Assembly: GCF_030758935.1 (NCBI RefSeq)
Contig: NZ_CP132333.1
Location: forward strand, 1,178,992 to 1,242,991
Direction of reading: 5' to 3'
Length of the DNA stretch: 64,000 nucleotides
Source of the DNA: Geothrix sp. PMB-07
Lineage (GTDB): Bacteria > Acidobacteriota > Holophagae > Holophagales > Holophagaceae
This document shows, piece by piece, positions 26,524 to 54,062 of this stretch (the first letter of the stretch is position 1; the number at the start of each line of letters is the position of its first letter). The translations under genes and the position numbers were made by a program. The notes beneath the pieces are model-generated. The model searched no databases. It was not told the DNA's origin and worked only from the letters and a program-made list of their open reading frames with translations.

Positions 26524-26549
26524 CAGAAACCTAACGAGTGAAGCTAACC

Positions 26550-34974: not shown

Positions 34975-35230
34975 CTCTCTCTTTTTCAACCCGACCTTCA
35001 CATTTAGCCCGGACCTAAATCTGGGAACCGGCCAGAATAAGTTATGGACATAAGTGGCTTGCGATGAATTGTTCAGTCCGCCATGGATTAACCAACTCAC
35101 AAGGTCAAGTGCAGAGCTGAAGCCAAGAAATGCTACAAAAAAGGCCATGCCGAAGTTCGACTTTGGTTCCGAAGGGAAAACAACCTTTGTGTCCATAGGG
35201 ATCTCCAGCTTGTTTCTGAATTGAGGGAAG

Positions 35231-36384: not shown

Positions 36385-36422
36385 GTCGTTCTCTGGAGGA
36401 AGCCTAACGAGGGAAGCTAACC

Positions 36423-37080
36423 AAAACATAAGGTAGGCCCCCCGCTATGCGGGGGCGACAGTCGGAGTTTGACAGCTACGGGAGTCCATCGCTGAACTGA
36501 TCAGGTGAGCCGCCAAGCACACTTGAGGAGAACTGAGATGGACTTGTTTGAAAGTTTAAGTCACACAAGGTGGGAATGTAAGTATCACGTAGTGTTCGTG
36601 CCAAAACGAAGAAGGAAGGTGATGTATGGGAGGGTGAGAGAGCGATTGGGTGAAGTGTTCAGGCAGCTGGCTGGGCAGAAAGAAAGCAAAGTGCTGGAAG
36701 GGCACTTGCTGGCAGATCACGTACATATGTTGTTGGCGATTCCGCCGAAGTATGCCGTATCGCAGGTAGTGGGGTTTATGAAGGGTAAGAGCGCGATTTA
36801 TCTGGCCCGTGTATATGGAGAAACGAAGAGGAACTTCACGGGTCAGCATTTCTGGGCGAGAGGATTTCTGGTGTCGACGGTAGGGAAGGACGAGCATCAG
36901 ATACGGCAGTACATCCAGAACCAGGAACGCGAGGAAGAACGATTGGAGAAGCTGGAGCTTTGGCGCTAGGAGGCCACCGAGTATGTGGCTCCAACCTTCG
37001 GGGCCGCGTTAGCGACCCCGTTTAGCCGCTTTGAGCGGCTCACATAATAAGGCCCCCGGCTTTGCCGGGGGATCGTTACC
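36423..37080 (+). mobile_element. IS200/IS605-like element, copy 3 (inserted in attC)
   Basis: This 658-bp element has the same orientation and attC position as copies 1 and 2. One difference seen by eye is GAGTATGTGG here for GAGTAGGTGG, downstream of tnpA. Confidence 0.92.
36538..36969 (+). CDS. tnpA: IS200/IS605-family TnpA transposase (Y1, HUH)
   Basis: This 143-residue transposase is identical in translation to the copies at 20925 and 26665; HUH motif and catalytic Tyr intact. Confidence 0.95.
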   Translation: MDLFESLSHTRWECKYHVVFVPKRRRKVMYGRVRERLGEVFRQLAGQKESKVLEGHLLADHVHMLLAIPPKYAVSQVVGFMKGKSAIYLARVYGETKRNFTGQHFWARGFLVSTVGKDEHQIRQYIQNQEREEERLEKLELWR

Positions 37081-37180
37081 GGCCCTATTGCTGCGGGACA
37101 CGGACGCTTAATTGTTTGAGGACACTAGCGCGCAGCGATAGGGTCCGAGTTGAGCGAAAGGTTAGGTGCATGGGCGGCAT

Positions 37181-38452: not shown

Positions 38453-38470
38453 GGGCTCTCCATTGAGTGC

Positions 38471-38488
38471 GCCTAACGAGTGAAGCTA
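38471..38488 (-). repeat. Partial attC, proximal array end
   Basis: Only R' (GCCTAAC), its spacer and the first four bases of L' remain; the rest is replaced by the 3' end of a truncated transfer gene whose stop codon (TAG) is formed by the L' remnant. Confidence 0.85.
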
Positions 38489-38881
38489 GGCACCTTCCAG
38501 TTCCACCATGGAAATTGTTGTATCCAACATCTGGCTGAACAGCTTCTGAGTGGCGTCGACCATCGGACCATTGGCTGCCTCGATGACGCGGGTGCCAGCC
38601 CAGCTCGCCATCGTCCCGAAAATTGGGGAAGCTCCCATCACTAGAAACCAAACGACGAACAATTTTGCGTGAGCTTTGGCGAAAAATTTTAGGCTCTTAG
38701 CTCCGTCGGTGCTGTCGCCCACCCAGTTCAGGTACTGGTTCAATAAAAAAATGGCTCCGGCCGCGGCCCACACCACCGTGGAAACAACCCCAATCACCAT
38801 GTTCGACGAGGCGTCGAGCAAGCCTTTGACAATGATGTAATAGAAATTTGCGATGTTCTGAATCAGGTGGTTGTCCATCAC
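38486..38881 (-). pseudogene. Truncated TrbL/VirB6-like conjugative membrane protein
   Basis: This 131-residue N-terminal fragment has two or three hydrophobic helices ('NMVIGVVSTVVWAAAGAIF', 'KLFVVWFLVMGASPIFGTM') and an N-terminus like TrbL-type mating-pair proteins. It ends ...Glu-Gly-Ala at a TAG supplied by the broken attC, so the C-terminal part was lost at the array junction. The GTGATG start overlaps the stop of the preceding gene. TrbL assignment is from topology and neighbours, not from a firm motif. Confidence 0.5.
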
Positions 38882-40539
38882 GACCTCCAGCTCGACAGGT
38901 TGAAACTTTTTCCAAAGACAGCCCTCGCACCAGCATCCAGGCCCTCGAATACAGGCTGGAGTGCGCCAAGGCTCATGGTTTTGCTGAATTTCACGTATCC
39001 CGTTACATCACTCAACCGGTTCGCGAGTTTCGCAGGGAGGTCTGCCGCGATCGCCTCGGCCGGGTTTTTCACCTGTTGAGCAGATGATGCAGGAATAGTT
39101 CCTGGCAGCGTAGCAAGCTGGTCGGGTACGCGAACCGGAATCATCGTCGGACTGGGAAGTTTTGCGAGGATCAGTCGCAGGCGAGCCATCGTCGTCTCCT
39201 GTTGAATCTGTAAATTCAGCAGTCCCATTTGCTCTGCATACCATTGATCGCCCATGATTCCGCGCATGTCCTGGAAGGCGCGAGCCTTCTGGGAAGCAAA
39301 ATCCCGTAGTTTGTCGTTCTGGTCCTGGATTTGGGTCAACAGATTGTGCTTGAGCTGCTCCTCAACATTTGTGCCGGTTGCCTCCGCATGGGCGTTGGCT
39401 AGCATCGCTGCTGAAAGCTGCTCCTTGTTGGCGGTTTTCCCGTTGTTGTCGCCAAGTGTGTTAAACCAGCTCGTAAATGAAAGAACCCCCTCTGCGGGAG
39501 GCTTGTACTGACTTTTTAGCTCCTGGATGTTGTCGTGCTTCGTGCTTTGTCTTTTCGCCACTTCTCCGACCGCCACTCGCAATCGCGCGACAATAGCAAC
39601 CACCTCCGTCGCCTGGCCATCGATTTTGAGTAGGCGATTTGCTGTGTTTTCAGCGGCCTTAGTGTCCTCACCTTTGGCAAGCGCATCGTTTAGGTCAGAG
39701 AGGAGTTTCAGTGCCGCCTGATAGGTCGGGTCGTCCTGGCCGCGGGCCGAGAGAAATTCTGCTGATCGTTGAAGTGTTTCACGACGCTTACGAAAATAGG
39801 CCTGCGTCTCCTGCTTGAGGCCGACATAGGTGCTAGCGTCGAATGGGACATCGTAATAAGCCTCCTCGACCTCGTTGATTTTCTGCGCACTGCGCCAATT
39901 GCCCCACGCGTCTTCTGTGGCACGCTTTTGCAACTCGGCAGAGGACAGGTTGGCGTCATCAGCGCGCCTTACAATCGTAAAATGGTCGAGATCAAAATTC
40001 AGGTTGCCGGTCTTAAGACCGGCATAGATGTCTTCAAAGCCGCCGAAATTCATTCCGGGAAGATGGGGCGAGTTCAGCCTCTGCTGAGGGCGCAAAACTG
40101 GACGCAACACCCAGTGATCCTCGGCTCCATCGGTATGGCTAGCGAATGCCTCCAGCATTGGCATGCCCTGAATCAGGTTGATTGATGTGTTCGGGTTGGT
40201 AACGCGCTGGTAAAGGCGTACGCCGTTTTGATAGTCCTCGTATGTGGCCATGGCCTGACGAACAGCCCAGTAGTCTGTGGTTGCTTTGGAGTCCAACCAC
40301 TGGAGGTCTGATTTGACCTCACGATATGCCGTCTTCATGTATTCGGCGGCGCGCTGCCAGAAGGCAGGAACGTCGGTGGTTTGGGCATTGGCGGGCATTG
40401 ACCCAAGGAGCAAAAGTGAAGCGAGGGCTCCGCTCGTCAGCCTTCTTCCCAGGCGCCACGAGGCGAACGTCTCGGCGCTCAGCAATGGGAACACCGCCGA
40501 CACTACCAGGTAGGCCACTTCATGAAATATATTCCCCAT
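38878..40539 (-). CDS. Putative conjugative transfer protein (TrbJ/VirB5-like)
   Basis: This 553-residue protein has a hydrophobic N-terminus and a signal-like stretch ('TSGALASLLLLGSMPANAQ'). Long coiled-coil-prone helices follow ('QAYFRKRRETLQRSAEFLS', 'AALKLLSDLNDALAKGEDT'), then a Pro/Ala-rich C-terminus. Its position between a small protein and a TrbL-like membrane protein suggests a periplasmic pilus-assembly role as for TrbJ/VirB5. It is much longer than typical TrbJ (about 250 residues), so the name is tentative. Start and stop abut neighbours (TAAATG; TGATG). Confidence 0.45.
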   Translation of the reverse strand: MGNIFHEVAYLVVSAVFPLLSAETFASWRLGRRLTSGALASLLLLGSMPANAQTTDVPAFWQRAAEYMKTAYREVKSDLQWLDSKATTDYWAVRQAMATYEDYQNGVRLYQRVTNPNTSINLIQGMPMLEAFASHTDGAEDHWVLRPVLRPQQRLNSPHLPGMNFGGFEDIYAGLKTGNLNFDLDHFTIVRRADDANLSSAELQKRATEDAWGNWRSAQKINEVEEAYYDVPFDASTYVGLKQETQAYFRKRRETLQRSAEFLSARGQDDPTYQAALKLLSDLNDALAKGEDTKAAENTANRLLKIDGQATEVVAIVARLRVAVGEVAKRQSTKHDNIQELKSQYKPPAEGVLSFTSWFNTLGDNNGKTANKEQLSAAMLANAHAEATGTNVEEQLKHNLLTQIQDQNDKLRDFASQKARAFQDMRGIMGDQWYAEQMGLLNLQIQQETTMARLRLILAKLPSPTMIPVRVPDQLATLPGTIPASSAQQVKNPAEAIAADLPAKLANRLSDVTGYVKFSKTMSLGALQPVFEGLDAGARAVFGKSFNLSSWRS

Positions 40540-40833
40540 TTATTTCTCCTCGACCGAGTCGGTCGTCAATACTCCGCAAAGCTTTGCCACCACTGGTTCT
40601 CCAATTGGTGGATGAATCCACATTTCGCCTCGGGCAACCGCCTGGCGAATTACCTCAAAACCGGCATCGATGCTTGCCTCGCGAAGCCAAACCATTCGTC
40701 CTCGCGAGCCCCGACCAACAGAAGTTCGATGACCGATTTCGGACAGCAAATCCAGGACTGGCATAGGGCGATAGGCAAGTAGAGCGATGTCGCCATTTTT
40801 GGTTGCTAACCAAGTTGATGTCGGTGTTTGCAT
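40540..40833 (-). CDS. Small protein at the head of the trb-like operon
   Basis: This 97-residue protein from the ATG at 40833 ('MQTPTSTWLATKNGDIALL') has 'GRGSRGRMVWLREASIDAG' and 'AVARGEMWIHPPIGEPVVA'. It is soluble with no recognised domain. Its TAA is immediately followed by the ATG of the next gene, so it belongs to the same operon. Confidence 0.6.
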   Translation of the reverse strand: MQTPTSTWLATKNGDIALLAYRPMPVLDLLSEIGHRTSVGRGSRGRMVWLREASIDAGFEVIRQAVARGEMWIHPPIGEPVVAKLCGVLTTDSVEEK

Positions 40834-41148
40834 CCTTGATTTCCTTTCCACTCATAGCTTCTCGGCACAATTTTATTTAACTAAATCATTAAATCGAAAA
40901 TGATCTAAAGACTTTTGCCTTCGAGGCCGATGGGGTCCTATCCGTCGGAGGGTAGGGCAACGCAGGGATGCGACCCGAGCGTCGACGGTCGCCGGAGATC
41001 CACGGATCCCCACATACTGAGCCTCGCTTTGCGGGGCTCTTTCCATTGGCATTTCTTGAGTCAGCGATAAACCCTCGCAACCGCCGAATGGCGGGGACTG
41101 GCAGGATTTCCGGTGCAATGGTCGAATGCCTTTTCTGTCTGTCCTACC
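40834..41148. other. Intergenic region between trb-like operon and Gabija-like pair
   Basis: This stretch of about 315 bp should hold the minus-strand promoter of the trb-like operon, in the AT-rich part near 40,870-40,910. It also holds a terminator-like hairpin at 41,019-41,042. No supported gene. Confidence 0.5.
41019..41042 (+). terminator. Putative rho-independent terminator
   Basis: GAGCCTCGC-TTT-GCGGGGCTC forms a 9-bp stem with one G-T pair, followed by TTT on the plus strand. No plus-strand gene ends just before it, so it may insulate the downstream defence genes. Confidence 0.45.
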
Positions 41149-41233
41149 TTCCTGGAGCGGTGGTTATGGAAGAATGACTTTTCACTCCTCGTTGAGTCGA
41201 CGGCTTGATCGGCCACGAGACCAATTCCGTAAG
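41149..41233 (+). repeat. Direct repeat DR1 in front of the Gabija-like pair
   Basis: An ~85-bp sequence containing 'GGTTATGGAAGAATGACTTT' and 'GGCTTGATCGGCCAC' recurs with a few changes at 50427-50510, same orientation. It ends just before the likely start codon of the OLD gene and could be a promoter region, an attachment site or an element end. Confidence 0.85.
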
Positions 41234-41242
41234 GGAACGCTC

Positions 41243-42961
41243 GTGAGAATCCTGAGGCTACAGATCCAAAACTTTCGAGGAATCAGGTCGCTCGATTGGC
41301 AACCGGGACCTCACTTCCATTGCTTGATCGGTCCAGGAGACTCCTGTAAATCTACACTTTTAGATGCGATCGAGTTAGTCCATTACCCTCGATGGAATGT
41401 CGTATTCGATGACTCCGACTTCTTCAATGCGGACCCCAGTAATCCAATTGTCATTACTTCAACTATCTGCGACTTTCCGGCTGATTGGATCAAGGACGAC
41501 AGGTTCGGACTGAATCTGCGGGGATGGGGGCCAGATGGCCTTTTGGATGAGCCTCAGGATGACCTTTTGAAGGTTCTATCAATTCAGATGAAGGTAGATG
41601 GGAACCTGGAGCCGGAATGGCGGATTGTGAATGACCGAACTCCAGAAGGTCGCCCGATTTCAGCAAGAGACCGCGAAAAACTTGGCGTCTTCAGACTTGG
41701 CAATTCACCCGACTATCACCTTGGCTGGAGCCGTACATCCATCCTTAGCCGACTCACCACGGAAACTGATGATCTCCCAAAACTGATGGCGGAGGTGAGC
41801 CGCTCGGCAATGGAGGCAGTGAGACCGGACTTATTGCCAAGTTTGAAGGCGGCGTCTGCCGAGGTTCAAAAGTCGGCCAAAGTTGTTGGGTACGCCCCGA
41901 GGGTGGCCTTGCAGCCACTTCTCGATGCGAAGGCCATCTCCTTTGGGTCTGGAGCTATCGCGCTGCATGACGGGAAAATCCCTGTGAGACGAGCAGGCCT
42001 TGGTTCTCGGAGGTTGTTGACGATGAGCATCCAACGGGGACTGTCCCTTTCTGGTGGATTGTGCTTGGTTGATGAGATCGAACACGGACTTGAGCCACAT
42101 CGTCTTCGGAGGCTCCTACAAGTTCTCCGTGCTCCGAAGTCTTCCCCCAGCGACTCACCGTCGGATCAGACTTTTGTGACCTCTCACGCTCCGATCGTCT
42201 TGGCCGAACTGAAGGCTACCGAGTTGTTCGTCGTTAGGACTTCCGATGGATCCGTCACCATCGGCCAGATTCCTGGGGACCTTCAGCCCCTCGTGCGTAC
42301 CGAAACTGAGGCGTTCCTGGCCAGGAAGATCATCGTCTGCGAAGGAAAAACGGAGCTTGGGTTCCTACGGGGTATTGATAACGATCTTTGGGAAAGAAAG
42401 GGTGAGTCCTTCAGCTTGAAAGCGCTTGCCTTGGCCAACGGCAATGGGCGAAGTTCAGGTCCTCAGAGAGCCAAGGAACTTGCCGGTTTGGGCTACTCGG
42501 TGCTCTATTTCGGAGACTCCGATGACCCACTTTCGATTGGAGAGGCGGAACTCACTTCGCTAGGCATTAAGGTTGTCCTTTGGGCCGATAACTTTGCTTT
42601 TGAGGACCGACTTGCCCATGACCTTCCTTGGGATGGCATCGTGGCCTTGCTCGATTTGGCAGAGAAGAATAGGGGATTGGAACTGGTCCTGGCCTCGGTC
42701 GCGAAAGCTTTTTTACCTGGCAAGATCTCCCTGCCGAGGGAGTATTCGGCATGGCTTGAGGCCGGAGCCTCATCTGGCATTTCGGAATCCGAAATGCGGA
42801 GGGCGATCGGGAAGGCAGCCAATATAGGCGAGTGGTTCAAGAGGGTCGATCGTGCGGAACCTGTTGCGTCGCTGGTTAGGACGTATTGGGCGGCACTGAA
42901 GGAAAAGGATTCTGGTAAGAAGATCTGCGAAGTTACTGCATGGGCAGGTCTTCGTGATTGA
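41243..42961 (+). CDS. Class 2 OLD-family ATPase/TOPRIM nuclease (GajA-like)
   Basis: From the GTG at 41243 (AAGGGA upstream, 'RILRLQIQNFRGIRSLDW') the protein is 572 residues. The ABC-type ATPase part has Walker A 'GPGDSCKSTLLD' (Cys replaces the usual Gly before Lys), Walker B 'GGLCLVDEIEHGLEPH' and an H-loop 'FVTSHAP'. The C-terminal TOPRIM domain has Glu in 'IIVCEGKTELGFL' and Asp residues in 'VLYFGDSDDP'. Class 2 OLD proteins paired with a UvrD-like helicase are the GajA of the Gabija antiphage system, a nucleotide-sensing DNA nickase complex. The next gene overlaps by 8 bp and is such a helicase. Confidence 0.88.
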   Translation: MRILRLQIQNFRGIRSLDWQPGPHFHCLIGPGDSCKSTLLDAIELVHYPRWNVVFDDSDFFNADPSNPIVITSTICDFPADWIKDDRFGLNLRGWGPDGLLDEPQDDLLKVLSIQMKVDGNLEPEWRIVNDRTPEGRPISARDREKLGVFRLGNSPDYHLGWSRTSILSRLTTETDDLPKLMAEVSRSAMEAVRPDLLPSLKAASAEVQKSAKVVGYAPRVALQPLLDAKAISFGSGAIALHDGKIPVRRAGLGSRRLLTMSIQRGLSLSGGLCLVDEIEHGLEPHRLRRLLQVLRAPKSSPSDSPSDQTFVTSHAPIVLAELKATELFVVRTSDGSVTIGQIPGDLQPLVRTETEAFLARKIIVCEGKTELGFLRGIDNDLWERKGESFSLKALALANGNGRSSGPQRAKELAGLGYSVLYFGDSDDPLSIGEAELTSLGIKVVLWADNFAFEDRLAHDLPWDGIVALLDLAEKNRGLELVLASVAKAFLPGKISLPREYSAWLEAGASSGISESEMRRAIGKAANIGEWFKRVDRAEPVASLVRTYWAALKEKDSGKKICEVTAWAGLRD

Positions 42962-44363
42962 TGCTGAATGGCTCGCCAACGCTCACAATGTGGCAATCGA
43001 GGCTCCGGCTGGCACTGGGAAGACCACACTGATTTCCTCGGCTGTCGCACTATCCAAAGCAGAAAACCAACTTGTATTGACGCATACACACGCAGGAGTG
43101 GGGGCCATACGCCGGGCTCTTCATCGACATGGCGTCTCCTCGAAGATGTGTCATGTCGACACGATCGCAAGTTGGGCCCTCTGGTATGCCCAGTCCTACC
43201 CTGGAATGTCGGGCTTGAAGATCACTGAACCAGATAAGGATGATTGGGAAGAAGTCTATCGATGCGCCACAGCCTTGTTGATACACAAGGCTATCCGGCA
43301 GGTGGTCAAGGAATCCTATGCAGGGCTGTATGTAGACGAGTACCAGGATTGCACGCCTTCCCAACACAGATTGATCGTTGAACTGGCTGGAATCCTTCCT
43401 TGCAGGGTGTTGGGAGATCCCCTCCAGAGCATTTTCGAGTTCACGAAGGAGGGAGTTGTCTCATGGGAGTCGGATGTCGTTTCGGCCTTTTCGATCCATG
43501 CAGGGCCAACAGAACCTTGGCGCTGGAAAGGGCGAAATCCACGGCTTGGCAGATGGTTAGTGGAGGTTAGAAGGGCACTCCTCAATAATGAACCGATAGA
43601 TCTAAGGAATGCTCCCATCAGTTGGAAGCCGATCGGCAATAAGCCCGCCCAGCGAGTCCAGATCGCCGCGGCCAAGTTCCTCCGACACGCGCCTGGTGAA
43701 TCAGTTGTCGCAATCCACAAATGGGCTCCTGGCGTTCATAAGATTTCTGGTCTTTTGGGAGGATCCTACTCCGGCATCGAACCGATCGAATGCCCCGACC
43801 TCTTCAAATTCGCCAAAATGATTCAGGAGTCCTCGGGATTGGTCCGAGCTGTGGCGGTTATCGATTTCGCATCAAATTGCATGACCCACCTTGGATCCCA
43901 CTTGTCCTCGATCCGAGCCTCACTGGTCGCTGGCAACATCCCGAGAAGCCAGAAAGCCAAAGCTGAGCTTGAAGCTCTGGTACGGGTGGCTGAATCCGAT
44001 CAGGCGGATGCCGTCATTGCTGCTCTTGCAGTTCTTAGAGAAATACCGGGGTGCGCTCTGTATCGGAGAGAGCTATTTGACGCCATGCGGAGATCTCTTT
44101 TAAATTCCAATGCACACGATGAGGATGCTCTATCCGCATCTGCCTGGAAGACACGAAATGCGACTCGCCATATCGGTCGGAGGCTGGCTAATCATTCGGT
44201 TGGAACAACCCTGTTAGTGAAAGGTCTTGAATTTGATCATGCGGTGATTCTTGATGCGGAAGCTGTAGGCAACACAAAAGAGCATCTTTATGTAGCACTT
44301 ACTAGGGGATCACAGTCTCTAACGGTCGTTTCTAGGAGTGCATTGCTGACCCCAAGTGGGTAA
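42954..44363 (+). CDS. UvrD/Rep-like helicase (GajB-like)
   Basis: This 469-residue SF1A helicase-like protein starts at a GTG overlapping the end of the OLD gene. Its motifs are Walker A 'EAPAGTGKTTLIS', motif Ia 'VLTHTHAGVGAIRRAL', Walker B 'GLYVDEYQDCTPSQ', motif III 'VLGDPLQSIFEF', and motifs V/VI 'VKGLEFDHAVI' and 'HLYVALTRGSQSL'. In Gabija, GajB joins GajA in a large complex and senses DNA ends. With the OLD protein this forms a complete two-gene Gabija-like locus. Confidence 0.88.
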   Translation: MIDAEWLANAHNVAIEAPAGTGKTTLISSAVALSKAENQLVLTHTHAGVGAIRRALHRHGVSSKMCHVDTIASWALWYAQSYPGMSGLKITEPDKDDWEEVYRCATALLIHKAIRQVVKESYAGLYVDEYQDCTPSQHRLIVELAGILPCRVLGDPLQSIFEFTKEGVVSWESDVVSAFSIHAGPTEPWRWKGRNPRLGRWLVEVRRALLNNEPIDLRNAPISWKPIGNKPAQRVQIAAAKFLRHAPGESVVAIHKWAPGVHKISGLLGGSYSGIEPIECPDLFKFAKMIQESSGLVRAVAVIDFASNCMTHLGSHLSSIRASLVAGNIPRSQKAKAELEALVRVAESDQADAVIAALAVLREIPGCALYRRELFDAMRRSLLNSNAHDEDALSASAWKTRNATRHIGRRLANHSVGTTLLVKGLEFDHAVILDAEAVGNTKEHLYVALTRGSQSLTVVSRSALLTPSG

Positions 44364-44432
44364 CGAAATTGAACCCTGGACATTAGGCTGCAGCCATTAG
44401 GGCGAGCTTAGATTTTTGTGCCTGATACATGG

Positions 44433-45035
44433 CTATGCAATCTGATTCAGCCATTCCGGCGGGCAGGGACGAAGCAGTCGCTGTAGACTTTCCTTCGTTG
44501 TCGAATGTGCCAACCACAAATCCCAGGATTCCGGTCCGAGGATTGCGGGCATCCGATGGTGAAATGGGGCTATCAGGTCATTTGGTTCGGTCGTGATCAT
44601 TGTACAACTGCGGATTTCACTGCCTTCGAGTCCCCAATCATCGAAGAGGCCTGCGATCACAATCATTTCGTTTGGGTCGCTGTTGGTGAAGAGCACCTTC
44701 TTCTCATAAAACCCTTCTAGAACGAGGAGGCATCGCTTTGCCTTGAAGGGGCCGCGCCAACTCGGTTTGGTGGCCACTTCATCGTCTCGCGCATTCCAGG
44801 TGCTATAGGCCTTCCACTTCGGGAAGTCCTCTGGCTTGACCCAGTGCGGAATAAGCTTCCAGCTACGCGCTTCGGTTAGCCACTCACAGCCGTGAAGCCG
44901 CACGATCGGCATCTGGTCTGTTGGCCGGATGCGAGGGTTGGGCGGTAATGTCGGGGTCGTGGGTCCGGCGCCCTGTTGGAGCAGCCGTTCCTTTATCTTC
45001 CCCCTCATGGCCAGGAACGCTGCCTGGGTACACAT
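44433..45035 (-). CDS. SRAP domain protein (YedK/HMCES-like abasic-site shield)
   Basis: From the ATG at 45035 the product is 200 residues beginning Met-Cys-Thr, as required: Cys2 becomes N-terminal after Met removal and forms a thiazolidine crosslink to abasic sites in single-stranded DNA. Other conserved elements are 'TWNARDDEV' (NAR motif), 'LVLEGFYEK' (catalytic Glu; usually GFYEW) and 'FHHRMPAIL' (His-Arg-Met-Pro). The frame opens to 45263 but that part lacks Cys2. It starts 15 bp after dnaE2, as the last gene of the imuB-dnaE2 operon; a strong purine-rich RBS precedes it. Confidence 0.93.
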   Translation of the reverse strand: MCTQAAFLAMRGKIKERLLQQGAGPTTPTLPPNPRIRPTDQMPIVRLHGCEWLTEARSWKLIPHWVKPEDFPKWKAYSTWNARDDEVATKPSWRGPFKAKRCLLVLEGFYEKKVLFTNSDPNEMIVIAGLFDDWGLEGSEIRSCTMITTEPNDLIAPFHHRMPAILGPESWDLWLAHSTTKESLQRLLRPCPPEWLNQIA

Positions 45036-45049
45036 CGTTCCTCTCCTCT

Positions 45050-47944
45050 TCAAGTCCAACGAAGGATTATTACGCCGTCCTGAAGATCTCCCACGCCCTT
45101 GGCTGGAACAACCTCCCCCAGGGTGAAAGCCTGCCCACGTCGGCGGAAGGCATCTGGGAATACCACCGCCTCCACGAGGCCTGTCTCGTCCTCCAAGGTC
45201 ACGAATTGCATGGGATGATTGTCCTTCGCCATTACCACCTTTTCCGCCACAACGAGTGCCCAAAACCGGCTCTCATGGCCGATACGGTGAGGGACTTGGC
45301 TGATGCGGTGCGGGAAGTCCTCGGTTGGCCGCTGGCCTCGGATGAGCACTGCCGGATGGAGTTCAAGGGTGACGCCGAGGAGTTCCATCTCCTGGTTGGC
45401 CCTCTGTATGGGGCCGGTGGGTCGGGGTTCTACTCCCTTTGGTAATCCACCCACGCTGTCCCAGAGCAGGCGGGTCCTATCTCCATCGGGGGCCCACCGG
45501 TCGAAGGCGCCAGCCCGCGCCAGCAACTCCATCCCCTTCGCGGTGGTCCTCGCACGGGCTTGTAGGTCCTGAGGATCCTGGAACGGGCCATCCGCCTGCC
45601 TGGTCGTCAGTAGGCGATCCAGGTCGGACTTGTGCAGGCCTTTGATGAAGCTGAGGCCAACTCGGAGCCGGTGATCCCCAACGGGGACGTAACCGGCAGC
45701 ACTCTCGTTCACGTCGGGGCCGACAACCTTCACTCCGTGACGGCGGGCATCGCCGAGGTAGGCGATGGCCGGGTAGAACCCACCTTGGTTGTTGATCACG
45801 GCGGCGAAGAACGGTGCTGGATGGTGGGCCTTGACCCAACCGCTCTCGTAACTCACGCGGGCGTAGGACGCGGAGTGGGGCTTGCAGAAGGAGTAGCCCG
45901 TGAAGGTCTCGATCATCGACCAGACCTCCTCCGCACCATTATCTGGGATACCGGTGGCCCGGCAGCCATCCATGAAGGCGGCCTTGTAGTCAGGGACGCG
46001 AGCAGCGTGGTCTTTTTTCCCCAGTGCCTTCCGGAGCTTGTCAGCCTGCTTGTAAGTGAATCCAGCCATGCCCTGGGCCACGCGCATCACGTCTTCCTGG
46101 TAGACCAGGACACCGTAGCTCTCGCTCAACAAGTCATCGAGGGAAGGGTGGATCGGCTCATAGGGCTCGCCTTTGGTGCGGGACACATAGGCATCCACCC
46201 AATGATTAGCGGCGGGCCGGATCAGAGAACTGTGAATGGTCAGGTGTTCGTAGTCTCCTCGCCCTACTCGCTGCTGAAGGATGCGGCTGGCTGGACTCTC
46301 GACGTAGAAGACGCCGATGGTATCCCCCTTGGCCATGAGCTCTTGGGTGACCTCGTCCTGCTCGGGGAACCATGTTCGGTGCTCTGGCCCTTCCCCTCGG
46401 CTGTTCAGAACGGCCAGAGCGTCGCGCACGACGGCGAGGGACCGGTTGCCAAGCAGATCCAGCTTCACGAGCCCGTAGGATTCAACCCCGTCCTTCTCCC
46501 AGGGGAGGATCGAAACTCCCTCCTTGGCTGGGGCGGGCTGGCTTGGAGCGTGCTCCCAGAGCGGCCCTGGCGTGATGACAGTACCGCCGGGGTGGACGGA
46601 CAGGAGGTGGGGTTGCCCGACGAGACGGCTGGCCATCTGGATAATGTCTGGCCAGGGCTCCGGCATGGGTGCGTCGGTCCGGCTGGTGCGGCCCAACTTC
46701 ACCGAGAGCCCGGCCTCGTCCTCCCAGCCCCATGTCCGCAGGCGCTTCGACATTCGCGTGATCTCGCTCTCCGGGCGGCAATGGAGCTTGGCGACCTCGC
46801 GGATGGCAGCCCGGGGCTGGAAGACGTTGTGGTTCGCGACCATCGCCACGTGGTCTCTCCCGAACGTATCGAAAACCCACTTCAGTACGTCGTCACGCTC
46901 GTCCCAGGCGAAGTCCACGTCCAGGTCGGGCGGATCCTCACGGTCCTCGTTCAGGAACCTCTCGAACATTAGGTTCGCGCCGACGGGGTCTACGTTCGTG
47001 ATTCCCAGCAAGTAGCTGAGGAGAGAGGCGGCCCCACTTCCTCGTCCGCAGGTGCGAGAGGCATTCCGGGTAATGGCCTGCATCACGAGGAAGTAGCCTC
47101 CGTAACCCTTCCGAAGGATTAGGTCCATCTCAGCCTCCAGGCGGCGATGGACCTTTACGTCGGACACGGCTCCGTAGCGGCGCCGGATTCCCTCGCGGGC
47201 CTCGGCCCACAGGCGCTCGGCAACATCCTCACCAGGAGCGAGATGGGGCGGGTTCGGCAGTACCCACCGCCCCCACGCCAATTGCCAGCCCTGAAGCTGG
47301 GCTTTGATCCGACGGGTGCCTTCATTCACCTCCTCGGAGAGCCCCTGCTCCCAGGCAGAGCAAGTTCGAGCCGCCAGGCGTGGCTCCCAGTAGTCCTTGG
47401 GTTTCAAGTCCTGGAGCATTGCGTTCATGGCGATGGCCCTCTTTGCCTTGTGGATCGCCAATCCTTCCGACTTCAGGAATCGGAGCACCTGGGGACCCGC
47501 GACGGCGATGCCCTCGGCTCGGGCTCGCTGAGCCACTTGCCACCCAGCACTGCCAATGAGGATCACCACCCGCTTGGTGTCTGGTGACTGGTCCCTCAGC
47601 ATCAGGGCAACCCCCCAGCGGTCGGCCAGGAGCAGGCAATTGTCCGGCCACGTCCACGAGCGGCCGTGCGCCTTATCGGTCAGAGCCTTGTTCATGGCGG
47701 TGTAGCCGTCAGCACCAAGAGGGAGGACGTAAACTTCGCCGTCGCCAAGTGGCAGTCGGCAGCCAACGTGGAGCCGCAGGCCAAGCTTTTCAGCGGCCTC
47801 CCGCATCCGAGGGAAGCCGTGAAGGCCCCGGTCCACCAGGGCAAGGTCTGTGTAACCGAGGCGGAGCGCCAACTTTCCAAGATCCTCGGGCAGGTATACC
47901 CCTTCCATGAGGCTGTAGGCGGAGATGCCGAGGGCCAGGGCCAT
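45050..47944 (-). CDS. dnaE2: Error-prone DNA polymerase III alpha subunit (DnaE2/ImuC)
   Basis: This 964-residue C-family polymerase lies directly downstream of imuB (3 bp). The palm carries 'PPDLDVDFAWDERDDVLKW', the expected catalytic Asp cluster; 'GRGSGAASLLSYLLGITNV' and 'RKALGKKDHA' are typical of the family; the C-terminal OB fold has 'VTLEDETGLVEAVVFPDAF'. The N-terminal PHP domain has 'LGISAYSLMEGVY' where active forms have HxHSxYS, so its metal site looks lost and no proofreading is expected. It would carry out mutagenic translesion synthesis with ImuB. Shorter than most DnaE2 (about 1,050). Confidence 0.93.
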   Translation of the reverse strand: MALALGISAYSLMEGVYLPEDLGKLALRLGYTDLALVDRGLHGFPRMREAAEKLGLRLHVGCRLPLGDGEVYVLPLGADGYTAMNKALTDKAHGRSWTWPDNCLLLADRWGVALMLRDQSPDTKRVVILIGSAGWQVAQRARAEGIAVAGPQVLRFLKSEGLAIHKAKRAIAMNAMLQDLKPKDYWEPRLAARTCSAWEQGLSEEVNEGTRRIKAQLQGWQLAWGRWVLPNPPHLAPGEDVAERLWAEAREGIRRRYGAVSDVKVHRRLEAEMDLILRKGYGGYFLVMQAITRNASRTCGRGSGAASLLSYLLGITNVDPVGANLMFERFLNEDREDPPDLDVDFAWDERDDVLKWVFDTFGRDHVAMVANHNVFQPRAAIREVAKLHCRPESEITRMSKRLRTWGWEDEAGLSVKLGRTSRTDAPMPEPWPDIIQMASRLVGQPHLLSVHPGGTVITPGPLWEHAPSQPAPAKEGVSILPWEKDGVESYGLVKLDLLGNRSLAVVRDALAVLNSRGEGPEHRTWFPEQDEVTQELMAKGDTIGVFYVESPASRILQQRVGRGDYEHLTIHSSLIRPAANHWVDAYVSRTKGEPYEPIHPSLDDLLSESYGVLVYQEDVMRVAQGMAGFTYKQADKLRKALGKKDHAARVPDYKAAFMDGCRATGIPDNGAEEVWSMIETFTGYSFCKPHSASYARVSYESGWVKAHHPAPFFAAVINNQGGFYPAIAYLGDARRHGVKVVGPDVNESAAGYVPVGDHRLRVGLSFIKGLHKSDLDRLLTTRQADGPFQDPQDLQARARTTAKGMELLARAGAFDRWAPDGDRTRLLWDSVGGLPKGVEPRPTGPIQRANQEMELLGVTLELHPAVLIRGQRPTEDFPHRISQVPHRIGHESRFWALVVAEKVVMAKDNHPMQFVTLEDETGLVEAVVFPDAFRRRGQAFTLGEVVPAKGVGDLQDGVIILRWT

Positions 47945-47947
47945 GGT

Positions 47948-49069
47948 CTACGCTCCCTGGCGCAGAGCCTGATGGCCGAAACGACGGTGCAGCCGGAGCG
48001 CCGTCGCTTCCAGGGCCAACCGTTTCTGGATGTGGTCTTCCACGAGAAGTGCCTGAACTGCGGGCATCGGCCCGAGCCAGGCTTCCAGTTCCATCCGCTG
48101 GATGAGCACGCGCCGGGTGGCCTCTGACATGAAGCAGAGTTCAAGGTCCCGACAGCTCGTCCAAAGGTCCTCCCCGCCCAGACCAAATGGCATCTCGTGG
48201 TGGAGATCGTCCACATCCCACCAGGACAGCCGAAGCCGGTGGATGAATCGTCCGTCGAGACGCCACCTCCACGCCGCTTCCCAGACCCATGAGGCCAGAC
48301 CGAGATCGTGCTTATGCGCCGGTGGCATGATGGTTTTCCGAAGCGTCTCGGACGCCCGCACCGTTTCTAGCAGCGGGAGTCGGTCCTGGTCCTCTCCACG
48401 GGCCTGTCGGAGGACCTGGAATGCCTCAGGCGGAGGAATGATCCGGCCCAAGGCCTGTACCTCCATCGGCTGCACCTGGGCAATGCGATGGAGCCCGAAA
48501 TGCTGAAGCCGTTCTCGGGAACGGACCTCCAGGGCGGGAAGGGCGCACAAGGGGAATGGCGCCAGGAAGGGCGCCTCCGCCCCTGTTTCGATTAGGCGAA
48601 TTTGGTCCTCGGCCTTGGCTGCCAACCGGGATGCGGAAAGGCTCTGGCTGAGGCCACCATGGGCCTGCCACCCCACCGTCTGATGGAGTTCCTGCCTGAG
48701 GCGCTCTGCGGCATCGAGTGCTGGGCCATGGAGGCGTTCGGTGCCTCGTAGGTCTAGGAAGCCCTCTCCAAACCGCCCCAGGCGGCCCAGAGGGCTGTAG
48801 GCAAGCAGATGCCGTCCCAGGCAGGCACGAGCATCCATCCAGGTTGAGGGGGCCGGGTCCAGGATGATAAGCCCTGGATCCTGGTGCAGTGCGATGTCTA
48901 CCGGAACTCCGGGTTCCAAACCTGCCTTTCGTGCAATGCGGTCCACCATCCACAGCAGTGGGACGCGACCAACCTCAGGACTTCGGAAGCCAAGGGGACG
49001 ACCAGCCAGCCCTGGCTCGTGCAGCCGGGCAATCTGGAACGGAAGCTCTGGGACCCACACCGCGAACAT
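47948..49069 (-). CDS. imuB: ImuB-like Y-family polymerase homologue (non-catalytic)
   Basis: This 373-residue protein has Y-family layout ('LPFQIARLHEPGLAGRPLG', 'RLGRFGEGFLDLRGTERLH', 'HGGLSQSLSASRLAAKA', 'FGLHRIAQVQPMEVQALG'). The N-terminal Asp of the active site is absent (Val-Pro-Glu-Leu), as in ImuB, which acts as a clamp-binding hub for DnaE2. It is shorter than chromosomal ImuB (~500) and no ImuA/RecA-like gene precedes it, so the cassette is a reduced imuB-dnaE2 form with an SRAP gene at its end. Confidence 0.85.
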   Translation of the reverse strand: MFAVWVPELPFQIARLHEPGLAGRPLGFRSPEVGRVPLLWMVDRIARKAGLEPGVPVDIALHQDPGLIILDPAPSTWMDARACLGRHLLAYSPLGRLGRFGEGFLDLRGTERLHGPALDAAERLRQELHQTVGWQAHGGLSQSLSASRLAAKAEDQIRLIETGAEAPFLAPFPLCALPALEVRSRERLQHFGLHRIAQVQPMEVQALGRIIPPPEAFQVLRQARGEDQDRLPLLETVRASETLRKTIMPPAHKHDLGLASWVWEAAWRWRLDGRFIHRLRLSWWDVDDLHHEMPFGLGGEDLWTSCRDLELCFMSEATRRVLIQRMELEAWLGPMPAVQALLVEDHIQKRLALEATALRLHRRFGHQALRQGA

Positions 49070-49085
49070 CGAATCTCACATGCCA

Positions 49086-49100
49086 CCCCAAATTTTGGGG
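49086..49100. promoter_or_regulatory. 15-bp palindrome upstream of imuB, candidate operator
   Basis: CCCCAAATTTTGGGG, a perfect 7-bp inverted repeat around one base, lies 17-31 bp before the imuB start. A second inverted pair GTAGCG...CGCTAC lies at ~49,112-49,138. SOS control of imuB operons is usual, but neither matches a LexA box that I know. Confidence 0.4.
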
Positions 49101-49144
49101 GGTCCCAAATGTAGCGAAAAAAACACGAACACGCTACTCTGTTG

Positions 49145-49388
49145 AGCGAGATTGATGGATTGGGGCAGGGGCCCTAGGTCGGCTTGACCTGTAGCGGCCC
49201 TGGCTACGCTTCCTTCGCGCCCGGCGGACGGCGAGGCCTCTGCTTATGCTCCGCATCCCGGTGGGTCAGTGGAATCCCTCCCGCTAGTTCCGGCGCGGGT
49301 CTCCCGCAGAAAGTGGCCTCTGGCCTTGGGAGCCTCATCGCTTGCCTTTGGGCGAGCCGCACAGGCGGCAGACCAAAAGGAGCACACC
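49145..49388 (+). promoter_or_regulatory. Hairpin-rich leader upstream of ssb
   Basis: This GC-rich 240-bp segment without a supported gene carries several short inverted repeats (e.g. GGCGCGGGTCTCCCGC; GGCCTCTGGCC) and ends in ACCAAAAGGAGC just before the ssb ATG. A similar leader precedes the gene at 60522. Leading regions of conjugative plasmids use folded single-stranded promoters (Frpo/ssi) ahead of ssb and antirestriction genes; that role here is inference. Confidence 0.4.
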
Positions 49389-49718
49389 ATGTCCAATACC
49401 ACCGTCATCACCGGCAACCTCGGTAACGTCCCTGAAATTCAAACATTCAATTCCGGCAAGATCAAAGCCACCTTCAGCATCGCCTCCGAAGTTCGCGACG
49501 CTCAGGGCAACAAGACCACCCAGTGGCACCGAATCAGCCTCTGGGGCAAGCGTGCCGAGCGCGCCGCTCAGATGCTCTACAAGGGCGCGAAGGTCCTCGT
49601 CCACGGCCAGGAAGCAGAGCGCCCCTATACCGACAAGAATGGGGAAAGCCGCGTCGCCGTTGAGTTCTCTGCGCAGAACTTCTATTTGCTAGCCAAGCCT
49701 GTGAGGACGCAGGCCTAA
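49389..49718 (+). CDS. ssb: Single-stranded DNA-binding protein, short plasmid-type
   Basis: This 109-residue OB-fold protein ('NTTVITGNLGNVPEIQTF', 'TTQWHRISLWGKRAERAAQ', 'LYKGAKVLVHGQEAERPYT') starts at the ATG at 49389 behind AAAGGAGC. It stops right after the OB core and lacks the acidic DDDIPF-type C-terminal tail that recruits partner proteins, so it may only coat DNA. It is followed by a terminator and the ArdC-like gene, a grouping seen in leading regions of conjugative elements. Confidence 0.94.
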   Translation: MSNTTVITGNLGNVPEIQTFNSGKIKATFSIASEVRDAQGNKTTQWHRISLWGKRAERAAQMLYKGAKVLVHGQEAERPYTDKNGESRVAVEFSAQNFYLLAKPVRTQA

Positions 49719-49726
49719 CTCGATTT

Positions 49727-49761
49727 GGGACCGCCGGCAGGTCCGGCGGTCCCTCCCTTTT
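49727..49761 (+). terminator. Rho-independent terminator after ssb
   Basis: GGGACCGCCGG-CAGGT-CCGGCGGTCCC forms an 11-bp stem followed by TCCCTTTT. Confidence 0.85.
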
Positions 49762-49785
49762 CCCCTCGATTCCTCAGAGAAAACC

Positions 49786-50433
49786 ATGAACCAAGAAACC
49801 GACCATGCACGCGCCAACGCAGCTTCCTGGATGGATTCCATCAATGCCTTCGTTGAAGCCAGGAGCCAAGAAACCTGGGCTCGCCTGGAAGATCTGCGCG
49901 AGGAACGCGGCGAATGCCGTGACACAGCGAATCCGATGAGCTGTGATGACCTAGCCGAACTTGAGCGACGAGAGTCCCTGCTTGATGATTACGACGATGC
50001 GGAGGCAGCCCGTGAGCGGGCTCAAGAACCTATCCTCTCAGTTGAGGTTCGCTCCGGTTGGAATAACCCCAGCGAAACCATGAAAGCCGAAGAATTCATG
50101 ATCCTGTTACCCGAGACACCTCCGGCACCTGTCGAATTCGACCTCATTGTCGAGGCAGAGGCCCTGTGGGAGGCGATGCCGCAGCGCCCCAAGATGACCC
50201 ACGGCGGCGACCGCGCCTGCTACATCCCAGGCTGGGATGAGATTCGGATGCCGAATCGCGCTGCATTCCCCACGGCCGAGGGTTTCTACGAGACCCTTTT
50301 CCACGAAGCTGGACACAGCACCGGCCACAGTTCCCGGCTGAACCGGAAAGAGGTCATGGCTGGCGGGATGTTCGGCTTACGGGCTTACTCCTTGGAGGAG
50401 CTTGTGGCTGAGCTATCTGCCGTACTTTCCTGA
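49786..50433 (+). pseudogene. ArdC-like antirestriction metallopeptidase, C-terminally truncated
   Basis: This 215-residue frame has the C-terminal zincin half of ArdC-type proteins: 'RACYIPGWDEIRMPNRAAF', 'TLFHEAGHSTGHSSRLNR' (HExxH plus a third His) and 'SLEELVAELSA', after which family members continue for another ~80 residues. Here the frame ends Val-Leu-Ser-stop at the edge of direct repeat DR2. The first ~85 residues are acidic and helical and do not resemble the ssDNA-binding N-domain of ArdC. ArdC protects incoming plasmid DNA from restriction; this copy has probably lost function. Confidence 0.72.
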
Positions 50434-50510
50434 GGCGTTGGTTATGGAAGAATGACTTTTCACTCCCCGTGGAGTCAATGGCTTGATCGGCCACAAGACA
50501 ATTTCTATAG
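50427..50510 (+). repeat. Direct repeat DR2 at the break of the ArdC-like gene
   Basis: This is the second copy of the ~85-bp sequence at 41149-41233. The ArdC-like reading frame loses its family similarity where the repeat begins and stops inside it. Confidence 0.85.
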
Positions 50511-50803
50511 GCGGCTTATTTCCCCCTTCGATAGTTTCGAGGAGTTTTGGGCACCACAATCGTTTCAATTTTTGAAGTTCGATGAGGCAAAGCCATTCCG
50601 TCGTCTAATCTAGTAACAATAACTCCTAGGAACATTCGGCATTGAGTTTTAATGGAACGCTACGATAGAAATGTAGTTCACTTGGAGAGTGACCTAGATG
50701 CCTTGGTCAATCACACCAAGTGGCTCGGCGACCCGGGTAGCCGACAGGAACACACACTGAATATGTCGTGGGCGGAATGTTGAGCGATTTTTGAGGAGCA
50801 GAG
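50511..50803. promoter_or_regulatory. Upstream region of the Fic gene
   Basis: These ~290 bp hold no supported gene. An inverted repeat CTTGGT...ACCAAG lies at about 50,702-50,720, roughly 85 bp before the Fic ATG, and GAGGAGCAGAG forms its RBS. Confidence 0.4.
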
Positions 50804-51925
50804 ATGAGCAAATTGGTTGTTTCACCTGAAATTTTCTTTTTCCCAAAAATTGAAACTATAATTGACCCTGATTTCGCCATGGATGGCTTACTTAAACAAA
50901 AATTTACTATTCTTGATGAACTTATCAAAAAATTAGAATTCAATAATTATTTATCCGACTATTTCATTCAAGAGGACCTATTTAGTGCAAGGTATAAAAT
51001 CGTAGCTCGGATGGAACTCGGGAGTGACATAAAAAATTATCTGAAAAACCGAGCAATATTAATTCGATACTGCTTTGAATTGGTTTGTAGTAAAGAGTAT
51101 GAACAGGAAAAAATAACCTTAACTCAGTTGATAATTTTACATAAAAATTTAAAACGAATATCGGCCTCAAATTTGAAATCTGAATTCCGAAAAAACAAAG
51201 GATTTATCGGAACTAGCAATAAAGATATCTATATTGAAACATTAGGGCCAGAGCATATAGAATCCTACCTAGAAAAATTGTTTGATCTCATTAATAATGA
51301 AAAAATTCCTAAAATTTCACGAATTGCAATTTTTTATATGGGATTTCTTACCATTCATCCATTTGAGGATGGGAACGGAAGAGTGGCAAGGATTTATGCT
51401 TCCTTATTGTTCTATCAATTAGGGATTATATCATTACCAGTATTCAATTTATCTGCGACACTTGAAAAGCACCAATTTAATTTCATGACAGCAAGTCATG
51501 CGGCTCTGTTGAAAAATGATTGGAATATTTTTTTCCAATTTTTTTACTCAATTGTGTACGAATGCCTGGAGCAGCATATTCGGGTTGCTAAAGATTTGTT
51601 AGATCTTGAAACCTCGATGACTCTTACATTTAAAAATAATAATTTTTCGACTTTTGTAATAAAAAAAATAATTAGGGCGCTATACTTGGCACCAATTTCT
51701 AGCCGATCAGAATTAAGACGATACTCTGGACTATCACTTGTCGATTTCCAAAAATGCATCAGCGTTTTATTATCAGAAAATAAGGTTCAGCTTGAAAATA
51801 ATAATATTGTATTTTCAGCATTGGGAAAAATCGTATGGAATAAAGATTGGGAGGCGGCGGTGGCTGAAGATAATAAGCAGGAGGTTCCATCAGGATTAAT
51901 ACCAATTAATTTTGATGCAAATTAA
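50804..51925 (+). CDS. Fic-domain protein (probable AMPylator)
   Basis: This 373-residue protein has the full Fic motif 'HPFEDGNGRVAR' (His near residue 185), with an N-terminal helical domain ('KFTILDELIKKLEFNNYLS') and a C-terminal winged-helix-like region ('ISSRSELRRYSGLSLVDFQ'), the common Fic/DUF4172-HTH architecture. Such proteins transfer AMP to Tyr, Ser or Thr and may be toxins. I see no clear S/TxxxE(G/N) inhibitory helix and no small antitoxin gene beside it. The DNA is strongly AT-rich compared with everything around it, a sign of recent transfer. Confidence 0.9.
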   Translation: MSKLVVSPEIFFFPKIETIIDPDFAMDGLLKQKFTILDELIKKLEFNNYLSDYFIQEDLFSARYKIVARMELGSDIKNYLKNRAILIRYCFELVCSKEYEQEKITLTQLIILHKNLKRISASNLKSEFRKNKGFIGTSNKDIYIETLGPEHIESYLEKLFDLINNEKIPKISRIAIFYMGFLTIHPFEDGNGRVARIYASLLFYQLGIISLPVFNLSATLEKHQFNFMTASHAALLKNDWNIFFQFFYSIVYECLEQHIRVAKDLLDLETSMTLTFKNNNFSTFVIKKIIRALYLAPISSRSELRRYSGLSLVDFQKCISVLLSENKVQLENNNIVFSALGKIVWNKDWEAAVAEDNKQEVPSGLIPINFDAN

Positions 51926-52149
51926 AAATATCAAACAAATTAGTCGGCCCTGGAAATTTCCCAGGTATAGATTCAGCAAGAATTTGAGGAACTGTAGGGT
52001 ACCCGGTACACCAGAAAGAGAGGAGGGGCCTCCGATTTACGAGTGTACCGATGAAGCCGAAGGCGAGGCGAGCGATGAGCGAGCAGCCGTGGCCGGTTCC
52101 CAGATTTAGGTCCGGGCTAAATGTGAAGGTCGGGTTGAAAAAGAGAGAG

Positions 52150-53199
52150 CTAATGGCCGGTTGGCCAGGAGCTTCCAGGAGATGGTAGCTTGGCTTCCAT
52201 CTCCGGAGAGGGTAGAGCAACGCTGGGAAGCGACTTGAGCGCTTCGGAGATGCACCGGACGGTGTTGGCCAGGGGAAACGCCCTGGCCTTTTCTGTCAGG
52301 GCGTTGGCCTCCACCGGGGGTGCCCAAAGCGATAAATCCCGGGGGTCCGGGGGCAGAGCCCCCGTCGCAGGGAGACCGAGCTGAGCCAGTTCAATGGTGC
52401 AGCGGAACTCGGTTGGGGTGAGGTAGCCCAGGCTGCTGTGCGGGCGCTCCTCGTTGTAGCGACGGCGCCAGGCTTCGACGATGACCTTGGCCTCAGCCAG
52501 GCTGGAGAAGGCCTCCATGTTCAGGCATTCGTCCCGGAACTTGCTGTTGAAGCTCTCGGCCACGCCGTTGGCCCAGGGCGAGCCCGGGGGGATGTAGAAG
52601 GTCTGGGCACCGGTGGCCATCAGCCAGACCTGGAGGTCATGGGCGATGAACTCGGGGCCGTTGTCACTGCGCAGGAATGCGGGCCATCCCCGGGTCTGGA
52701 ACAAGCGTTTGAGGACCTGCATGACCTCCTCGGCCTTGAAGGAGGAGGCCACTTCGATGACCAACGCCTCCTTCGTAAACTCGTCGGTGAGCGTCAGGCA
52801 CTTCACGACCTCGCCGTTCAGGCAGCTGTCGTGGACGAAGTCGTAGGACCAGACCTGGTTGGGATACCCGGATTTCATCGGCACATGCTGGCCGGTCCGG
52901 AGGTGCTTTTTGGGACGCCGCCGGACCTGGAGGCCATGGGCTTTGAAAACCCGGTGGACCCGTTTCAGGTTCACCCGGAGCTGGAGCCGCCTCAGGAGGG
53001 CCCAGACGCGCCGGTGGCCATAGCGGGGGTTGGCATGGGCAAGCTGGACGATCCGCTCGTCCAGCCCATCCAGTTTCACCCGGCGTGAATACCGGACATA
53101 GGAACGGCTCAGGCCCATGGCCCGGGCAGCGCGCCGCTGGGAGAAGCCGGTGGCCGTCAGGTATGCCGCCCCCTCCTTTCGCTGCGACGCGCCACTCAT
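52150..53199 (-). CDS. IS3-family transposase OrfB (DDE integrase domain)
   Basis: This 349-residue protein is identical in translation to the copy at 33925-34974, with intact DDE residues and the same C-terminal extension. Confidence 0.95.
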   Translation of the reverse strand: MSGASQRKEGAAYLTATGFSQRRAARAMGLSRSYVRYSRRVKLDGLDERIVQLAHANPRYGHRRVWALLRRLQLRVNLKRVHRVFKAHGLQVRRRPKKHLRTGQHVPMKSGYPNQVWSYDFVHDSCLNGEVVKCLTLTDEFTKEALVIEVASSFKAEEVMQVLKRLFQTRGWPAFLRSDNGPEFIAHDLQVWLMATGAQTFYIPPGSPWANGVAESFNSKFRDECLNMEAFSSLAEAKVIVEAWRRRYNEERPHSSLGYLTPTEFRCTIELAQLGLPATGALPPDPRDLSLWAPPVEANALTEKARAFPLANTVRCISEALKSLPSVALPSPEMEAKLPSPGSSWPTGH

Positions 53200-53462
53200 T
53201 TTTTTCGGAGAACCGTTTTCAGGGCTGCGATATCCAGCTCCCGTTCTGCCAGAAGGCGCTTGAGCTGGGCGTTCTCCTTCTCAAGCTGCCGCATGTGCCG
53301 GACATCGGAAACCTCGACTCCGCCATACTTCTTTCGCCATCGATAGAAGGTCTGCGCCGTGATCCCACGGGCCCGGCAGAGGGCATCGACCGTCTGCTCC
53401 CCCTTCTCCGCCTCTCTGAGAAGCCCCACGATCTGCTCCTCGGTGAACTTGCTTGTCCTCAT
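53196..53462 (-). CDS. IS3-family transposase OrfA
   Basis: This 88-residue HTH/leucine-zipper protein is identical in translation to the copy at 33662-33928. It overlaps orfB by 4 bp at the A-run slippage site. Confidence 0.95.
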   Translation of the reverse strand: MRTSKFTEEQIVGLLREAEKGEQTVDALCRARGITAQTFYRWRKKYGGVEVSDVRHMRQLEKENAQLKRLLAERELDIAALKTVLRKK

Positions 53463-54062
53463 TGGATCCGACTCCTTTGGAGTGGACCTTAACATTTAGC
53501 TTGGCTCTATTTGGAGGGGACAGGCCAGCCGGTGATCGGCTGGAAGCTGGATCTGGCGCTGGACCCGAATCATGATCTGGTTCGTCTAACAGCGGTGATT
53601 CCTTGGGATGACATGACGAAAGATTGCGGCCAGATGTATGTGCCGGATCGCTGTGAGCCACCGGGAGGGCTTCGTCGTCGGTGCCATGAGTTGTCCAGAC
53701 AATCCGTATGATGGGCACACCCTGGATCTTGGGCAGAGACTTCACTCCGCAAGCAAAGAGTGCGGGAGCCACGCGCTGAGTGGCGATAGGTGGAGGGATA
53801 CCAGGGTCACGGCGTGGATCCCGACAGGAGCCAGGTGCTCATCAGCGACAAGTGGAAACTCGGCAATCGGCTCAAACGGGACCTGAGGCACAGAGCCGCC
53901 ATCGGGGCGGAACTGGGCCACTTGACATCAGATGGCCTCCTCGGACGGAACTCCCACAAGGGCGTGGCCGGAGACATGCGGAACTTCCTCCTCAGCGCGG
54001 CCGGGCACAACATCCGGAAGACCCAGGCTCACCTCAGGGGCCCTTTTGCACCTGCTCACTGA

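Follow-up and report, generated by a model that had tools for sequence, protein, structure and literature searches.

A direct repeat of about 90 bp at the apparent left borders of two foreign blocks in a truncated conjugative-type island of Geothrix sp. PMB-07

Why should the same short sequence stand at two unrelated cargo junctions of one genomic island? This question is raised by a 64,000-nucleotide stretch of the Geothrix sp. PMB-07 genome (contig NZ_CP132333.1, positions 1,178,992–1,242,991; hereafter the window), in which a sequence of about 90 bp occurs once directly before a Gabija defence operon and once between the remains of an ardC gene and those of an ASCH-domain gene. We tentatively favour, with a little under even confidence, the explanation that a cargo delivery acted twice on the same island and that its left border survives as a relic in the two copies, DR1 and DR2. 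The copies and their shared core are located as follows.

41135–41227, forward strand: DR1; ends 15 nt short of the gajA start and begins at about the end of backbone homology to a paralogous island.
50413–50505, forward strand: DR2; between an ardC fragment and an ASCH 3′ fragment, overlapping the last ~9–15 nt of ardC homology.
41162–41188, forward strand: the 27-mer GGTTATGGAAGAATGACTTTTCACTCC, within the 28-nt identical core, in DR1.
50440–50466, forward strand: the same 27-mer, GGTTATGGAAGAATGACTTTTCACTCC, in DR2.

DR1 and DR2 align without gaps in direct orientation over 93 nt, 79 of which are identical (85%), and their longest identical stretch measures 28 nt. The 27-mer occurs exactly twice in the window and was absent from 100 shuffles. 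The similarity breaks off abruptly at either side and the flanks are unrelated, so no larger duplication extends beyond the repeat. The whole genome, a single 4.24-Mb contig, yielded no third copy; the repeat is well above chance and specific to these two places. The initial annotation, which described an ~85-bp direct repeat, was right about its existence and within about 15 nt about its coordinates, the repeat being slightly longer. It had also considered that the sequence might prove to be part of one larger duplicated segment or the 3′ portion of a known gene; the repeat lies within no larger duplication and is the 3′ part of neither ardC nor ASCH.

Beyond this genome, the search of relatives suggested at that stage returned no copy among 198 relatives or in a 396-genome phylum sample (about 600 phylum genomes). 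A 20-mer from the repeat was absent from ~85,000 species genomes, 18-, 20- and 21-mers were absent from viral contigs, and no copy was detected in phages or plasmids. A 16-mer gave 29 matches in viral contigs that hardly extended past the 16 nt, and the translated repeat frames gave nothing convincing against relatives and plasmids. At the sensitivities of these searches, the sequence was thus found in this genome only.

The positions of the two copies acquire meaning from a second, related island in the same genome, at about 2.945–2.985 Mb (2945000–2984800), which was reached through a marginal match to the ArdC C-terminus during the search for the missing end of ardC. Genes for a TraD/TrwB-type coupling protein and a ParA mark this sister island as a conjugative-type element. 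Three parts of the window correspond to it.

38487–41042, unstranded: left backbone module (truncated 439-aa gene, 553-aa gene, 103-aa gene, structured RNA with terminator), matching the sister island at 2.96 Mb.
49392–49718, forward strand: ssb, a backbone gene common to the paralogous island (80% nucleotide identity over 49475–49774).
60041–64000, unstranded: right backbone module, 91–99% identical to the sister island and continuing to 66277, about 2.3 kb beyond the window.

Identity of the left module to the sister is 94.7% at the nucleotide level over 38487–40524 and 76.7% over 40523–41042. The left part of the window island is cut within the 439-aa gene, and the cut is joined near 38486 to half an attC site (about 38470–38486) from the integron cassette array. 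This comparison shows that the window holds a truncated island whose backbone (left module, ssb and the right module from 60041) is interrupted by foreign blocks. The slot that separates the left module from ssb contains radC and a small gene in the sister, whereas in the window it contains DR1, Gabija, an SRAP gene and error-prone polymerase genes. The slot that follows ssb-ardC is occupied in the sister by an AAA_21 ATPase gene with its neighbour; in the window it starts with DR2 and the ASCH fragment and goes on to Fic, an IS3-like element and more genes, including the PADLOC candidate PDC-M71B. The sister lacks any copy of the repeat; DR1 has no counterpart there, and radC follows the left module instead. 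Backbone homology to the sister ends at about the points where DR1 and DR2 begin; the two copies therefore stand, in the same orientation and with cargo on their right, at the left borders of foreign blocks that fill two slots of a single backbone.

On the DR1 side, the terminator of the left module ends at 41042 and is followed by about 90 nt before the repeat. To its right lie the following genes.

41243–42961, forward strand: gajA, Gabija ATPase/nuclease, with a GTG start at 41243 (PADLOC GajA, 2e-174).
42954–44363, forward strand: gajB, Gabija UvrD-like helicase (PADLOC GajB, 8e-145).
44433–45263, reverse strand: SRAP-domain gene (Pfam PF02586).
45050–47944, reverse strand: error-prone DnaE-type polymerase.
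47948–49069, reverse strand: ImuB-like Y-family protein.

The GajA and GajB profiles match over nearly their full length, so the operon to the right of DR1 is complete, and the GTG start of gajA is supported by the alignment of its profile from residue 1. DR1 had been placed about 10 bp before the Gabija operon; the adjacency holds, and the measured gap to the gajA GTG is 15 nt. The G+C content of the cargo differs between Gabija (53%), the polymerase block (64%) and Fic (32%), which argues for separate origins.

On the DR2 side lie the following features.

49786–50433, forward strand: chimeric open reading frame (ORF) combining an unrelated N-terminal part of ~100 codons with an internal ArdC metallopeptidase fragment (about 50083–50427), ended by DR2.
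50506–50610, forward strand: 3′ fragment of an ASCH-domain gene, ~33 codons, identified by profile match and starting where DR1/DR2 identity ends.
50804–51925, forward strand: Fic/DOC-family gene, 32% G+C (Pfam PF02661).

Residues about 100–213 of the chimeric ORF correspond to an internal piece of the ArdC metallopeptidase (positions 12–87 of 126 in Pfam MPTase-PolyVal), equivalent to residues 122–236 of a 297-aa intact homologue. ArdC-family similarity stops around 50424–50427, where DR2 starts. Intact homologues from the same family, the ardC without insertion that had been recommended as a comparison, retain the N-terminal single-stranded DNA (ssDNA)-binding domain (ArdcN), run ~60 residues beyond the break in the window, and continue past it as AAFLCAEVGIDQ. 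A C-terminal profile search did not locate the missing ArdC C-terminus elsewhere in the window. The coincidence of DR2 with the loss of ArdC similarity was thus correctly noted in the initial annotation, with the refinement that the ArdC frame is truncated on its N-terminal side as well, where unrelated sequence replaces ArdcN. The first ~100 codons of the chimeric ORF (49786–50083) show no relation to ArdC, and Pfam gave no match for them; they form a separate, repeat-free junction. The ardC of the sister island is also broken, into ~77 N-terminal codons, ~230 nt of foreign sequence and ~20 C-terminal codons. Two same-family genomes have an intact ssb-ardC followed by a serine recombinase gene with an HNH-repeat stretch and two RepB/ParB-type genes, and one of them carries a DNA methylase and a type III-like restriction gene on the other side of ssb-ardC. 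The two genomes illustrate what ssb-ardC blocks travel with; neither the serine recombinase nor the RepB/ParB genes were seen here.

Immediately beyond DR2, whose identity to DR1 ends at 50505, the first codon of the ASCH fragment stands at 50506. This C-terminus was identified with a ten-member profile (E 4e-6 over twelve frames, 9e-5 over all window frames). With ardC similarity ending at DR2 and the ASCH remnant beginning after it, DR2 lies between a 5′-side ardC fragment and a 3′ ASCH fragment. The earlier description of DR2 as upstream of Fic was loose, as the ASCH remnant directly follows DR2 and Fic starts 299 bp past it, behind that remnant.

Under the explanation we favour, an element or donor sequence with varying adjacent DNA would have had the repeat as its fixed end, and the same conjugative-type island would have been hit twice. 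In the first event, the repeat and the Gabija operon, and possibly the polymerase genes too, would have entered the gap from the left module to ssb. In the second, the repeat and the 3′ end of an ASCH gene would have landed at the ardC break, with Fic arriving then or later. The repeat would thus have moved with its cargo, the same process would have acted both times, its machinery and other end would since have been lost, and the copies would have drifted to 85% identity. Several observations support this explanation. Among 21 border segments of both islands, DR1 and DR2 form the sole matching pair beyond segment overlap or known island homology. DR2 starts where ardC similarity ends, although intact ardC runs on in same-family genomes, and the backbone resumes at ssb and at 60041. 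Of the three options named in the initial annotation, the end of a cargo-bringing mobile unit is the best fit, partly supported by the border positions and orientation relative to the sister island; the matching right end it predicted, a recombinase and a third copy did not appear.

A number of results weigh against this explanation. Between 37701 and 64000, no other end and no inverted or diverged copy of the repeat rose above shuffles after multiple-test correction, nor did any right end shared by the two cargo blocks. Neither target duplication nor a terminal inverted repeat was found at the copies, and no recombinase or transposase was found linked to the repeat or encoded between them. 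The clustering represented by the 28-nt core does not reach significance (P about 0.06). Past the terminator, the backbone border to the left of DR1 depends on a weak alignment to the sister island, from 41042 to about 41134 (score 52 against a best of 48 in 300 shuffles). The junctions near 38486, 49775, 50083 and 50610 have no repeat copy, which indicates that junctions form here without it. Finally, none of the collections searched holds an independent instance of the repeat with cargo.

A serious rival, explaining nearly as much and in our estimate possible but doubtful, is that a ~90-bp scrap at one junction was passively copied to the other by illegitimate recombination, through template switching or end joining with local DNA in a recombination-prone stretch already made up of gene fragments, with neither function nor delivered unit. 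It would account for the several repeat-free junctions of truncated genes nearby (the unrelated N-terminus joined to ardC, the ASCH fragment, the half attC joined to an island gene at 38486) and for the confinement of both copies to one 10-kb stretch; random placement would seldom put both at backbone borders in the same orientation, and their 15% divergence does not fit a recent slip. A site-specific recombination site had also been put forward; DR1 and DR2 would then be the attachment sites bounding a 9.3-kb segment able to excise, with Gabija, the SRAP gene, the polymerase genes, ssb and the ardC fragment inside it. Direct repeats do bracket the segment, and a 28-nt identical core lies within a longer similar block at both ends. 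This account is nevertheless weakened because no recombinase is encoded between the copies and because ssb, being present in the repeat-free sister island, belongs to the shared backbone; the composition of the segment is heterogeneous, and the core clustering falls short of significance. The data allow such a site and lend it no positive support, and we regard it as unlikely. Similarly unlikely is the more ambitious form of our own explanation, which takes the repeat for the constant end of an undescribed delivery unit that inserts varied DNA, including whole defence operons, into conjugative-island backbones with its machinery in trans and leaves a ~90-bp border.

Two further accounts assign the repeat a role of its own. 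As a shared promoter or leader driving the downstream gene, the third option of the initial annotation, it would be well placed at gajA, where DR1 ends 15 nt before the start and a plausible ribosome-binding site, AAGGGA, follows it closely. The proposal found no support in the sequence: neither region has sigma-70-like hexamers, no strand fold exceeds shuffles, five distant gajA homologues have nothing similar upstream, so that a native gajA leader was rejected, and Fic is 299 bp away behind the ASCH remnant. We therefore consider a promoter very unlikely. Slimmer still is the chance that the repeat is the 3′ remnant of an undescribed gene. One frame reads FL.RWLWKNDFSL.VES.A in both copies, followed by a conserved TGA, and it has the most synonymous differences of any (6 synonymous and 7 non-synonymous, compared with 1:12 in the ardC frame); it is open for only ~25–45 codons upstream, and it matched no protein of the relatives convincingly and no plasmid protein. 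Under the delivery explanation, the present role of the repeat is probably nothing beyond a substrate for homologous recombination between its two direct copies.

Other identities were considered for the repeat and rejected. It is not an integron attC site: RYYYAAC is absent from both copies, GTTRRRY occurs once by chance in DR1 (GTTGAGT) and not in DR2, and the fold z-scores of −0.2 to +0.7 on both strands of both copies reveal no long imperfect hairpin. The attC sites of the cassette array in the window are clearly unlike DR1 and DR2. An end of an insertion sequence (IS) or transposon was dismissed given only two copies and no transposase among the genes between them, the IS3-like copy at 52090–53527 being a separate element. 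The repeat is not the 3′ end of ardC, as the C-terminal profile has no match in its frames and intact homologues continue differently, nor internal ASCH sequence, as the ASCH profile stops at the repeat. A weak resemblance to gajA codons at 41322–41341 was judged to be chance after multiple tests.

Just left of DR1, within the left module, lies the following feature.

40918–41042, forward strand: structured-RNA-like element with an intrinsic terminator.

A second copy occurs in the same genome at 2964506–2964661, and 6 of the 13 predicted pairs are changed on both sides. Its core, GGAGGAUAGGGCAACGCAGGGAUGCGACCCGAGCGCC, has matches in more than 12 other genomes of the family and phylum, sometimes three per genome; in one of these genomes a match sits 5′ of an IS110-type transposase gene (family assigned by eye). 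Rfam 15 gave no convincing match, and the element is possibly an undescribed RNA family. The 553-aa backbone protein of the same module (38878–40539) has no Pfam, NCBIfam or PADLOC match and was found just twice among the genomes searched, both times in this genome, with no homologue in the 198 relatives or in plasmids.

An integron cassette array with about 30 attC sites in two size classes (128 and 139 nt) occupies 16420–37774; two full-length integron integrases are encoded elsewhere in the genome (166045 and 719309) and none in the window. Two inverted 1438-bp copies of an IS3-like element with an rve-domain transposase, at 33597–35034 inside the array and at 52090–53527, are 100% identical, which points to recent insertion. 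The array also contains three nearly identical copies of an IS200-type element (20805–21470, 26545–27210 and 36418–37083; family assigned by eye, 143-aa ORF), which match a copy near the left of the sister island at 99.7–99.85% identity. At 57369–59971, a candidate defence pair consists of a TPR protein (PADLOC PDC-M71B, 3e-125) beside a protein-kinase-domain gene.

The entry of defence operons such as Gabija into island slots usually goes unseen, as the border sequence is not preserved. Should more copies be found, a border shared by two cargo junctions of one island would give a handle on this process; at present it is a relic seen at two places of a single genome. Among known systems, the Frpo/ssi ssDNA promoters of plasmid leading regions likewise are repeated non-coding sequences near ssb and ardC, and they need a strand-specific fold carrying −35/−10 elements (PMC11541004); here there is no secondary structure beyond shuffles and there are no such elements, and this identity was rejected. 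The attL/attR sites of integrative islands resemble our pair as direct repeats around a multi-gene segment, whereas here no recombinase lies inside, backbone ssb is included and both ends adjoin broken or variable DNA. ISCR/IS91 elements are fixed-end carriers of cargo, with a constant end, variable adjoining DNA and no target duplication. The repeat shares these three properties; it differs in that no Rep-type transposase, ori or ter was found and that it matches nothing known. No description of a repeated ~90-bp border at two cargo junctions was found in the study of modular defence hotspots in Pseudomonas genomic islands (PAPI/PAGI; PMC12629846), which may not deal with borders, and our own comparison covers two islands in one genome. 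In their arrangement the islands are alike, with a conserved backbone and different defence cargo in each slot, here Gabija and, in the sister, an AAA-type ATPase gene that is presumably a defence gene. The locus is a real feature of a known general kind: a modular mobile island with defence cargo, here with a border repeat.

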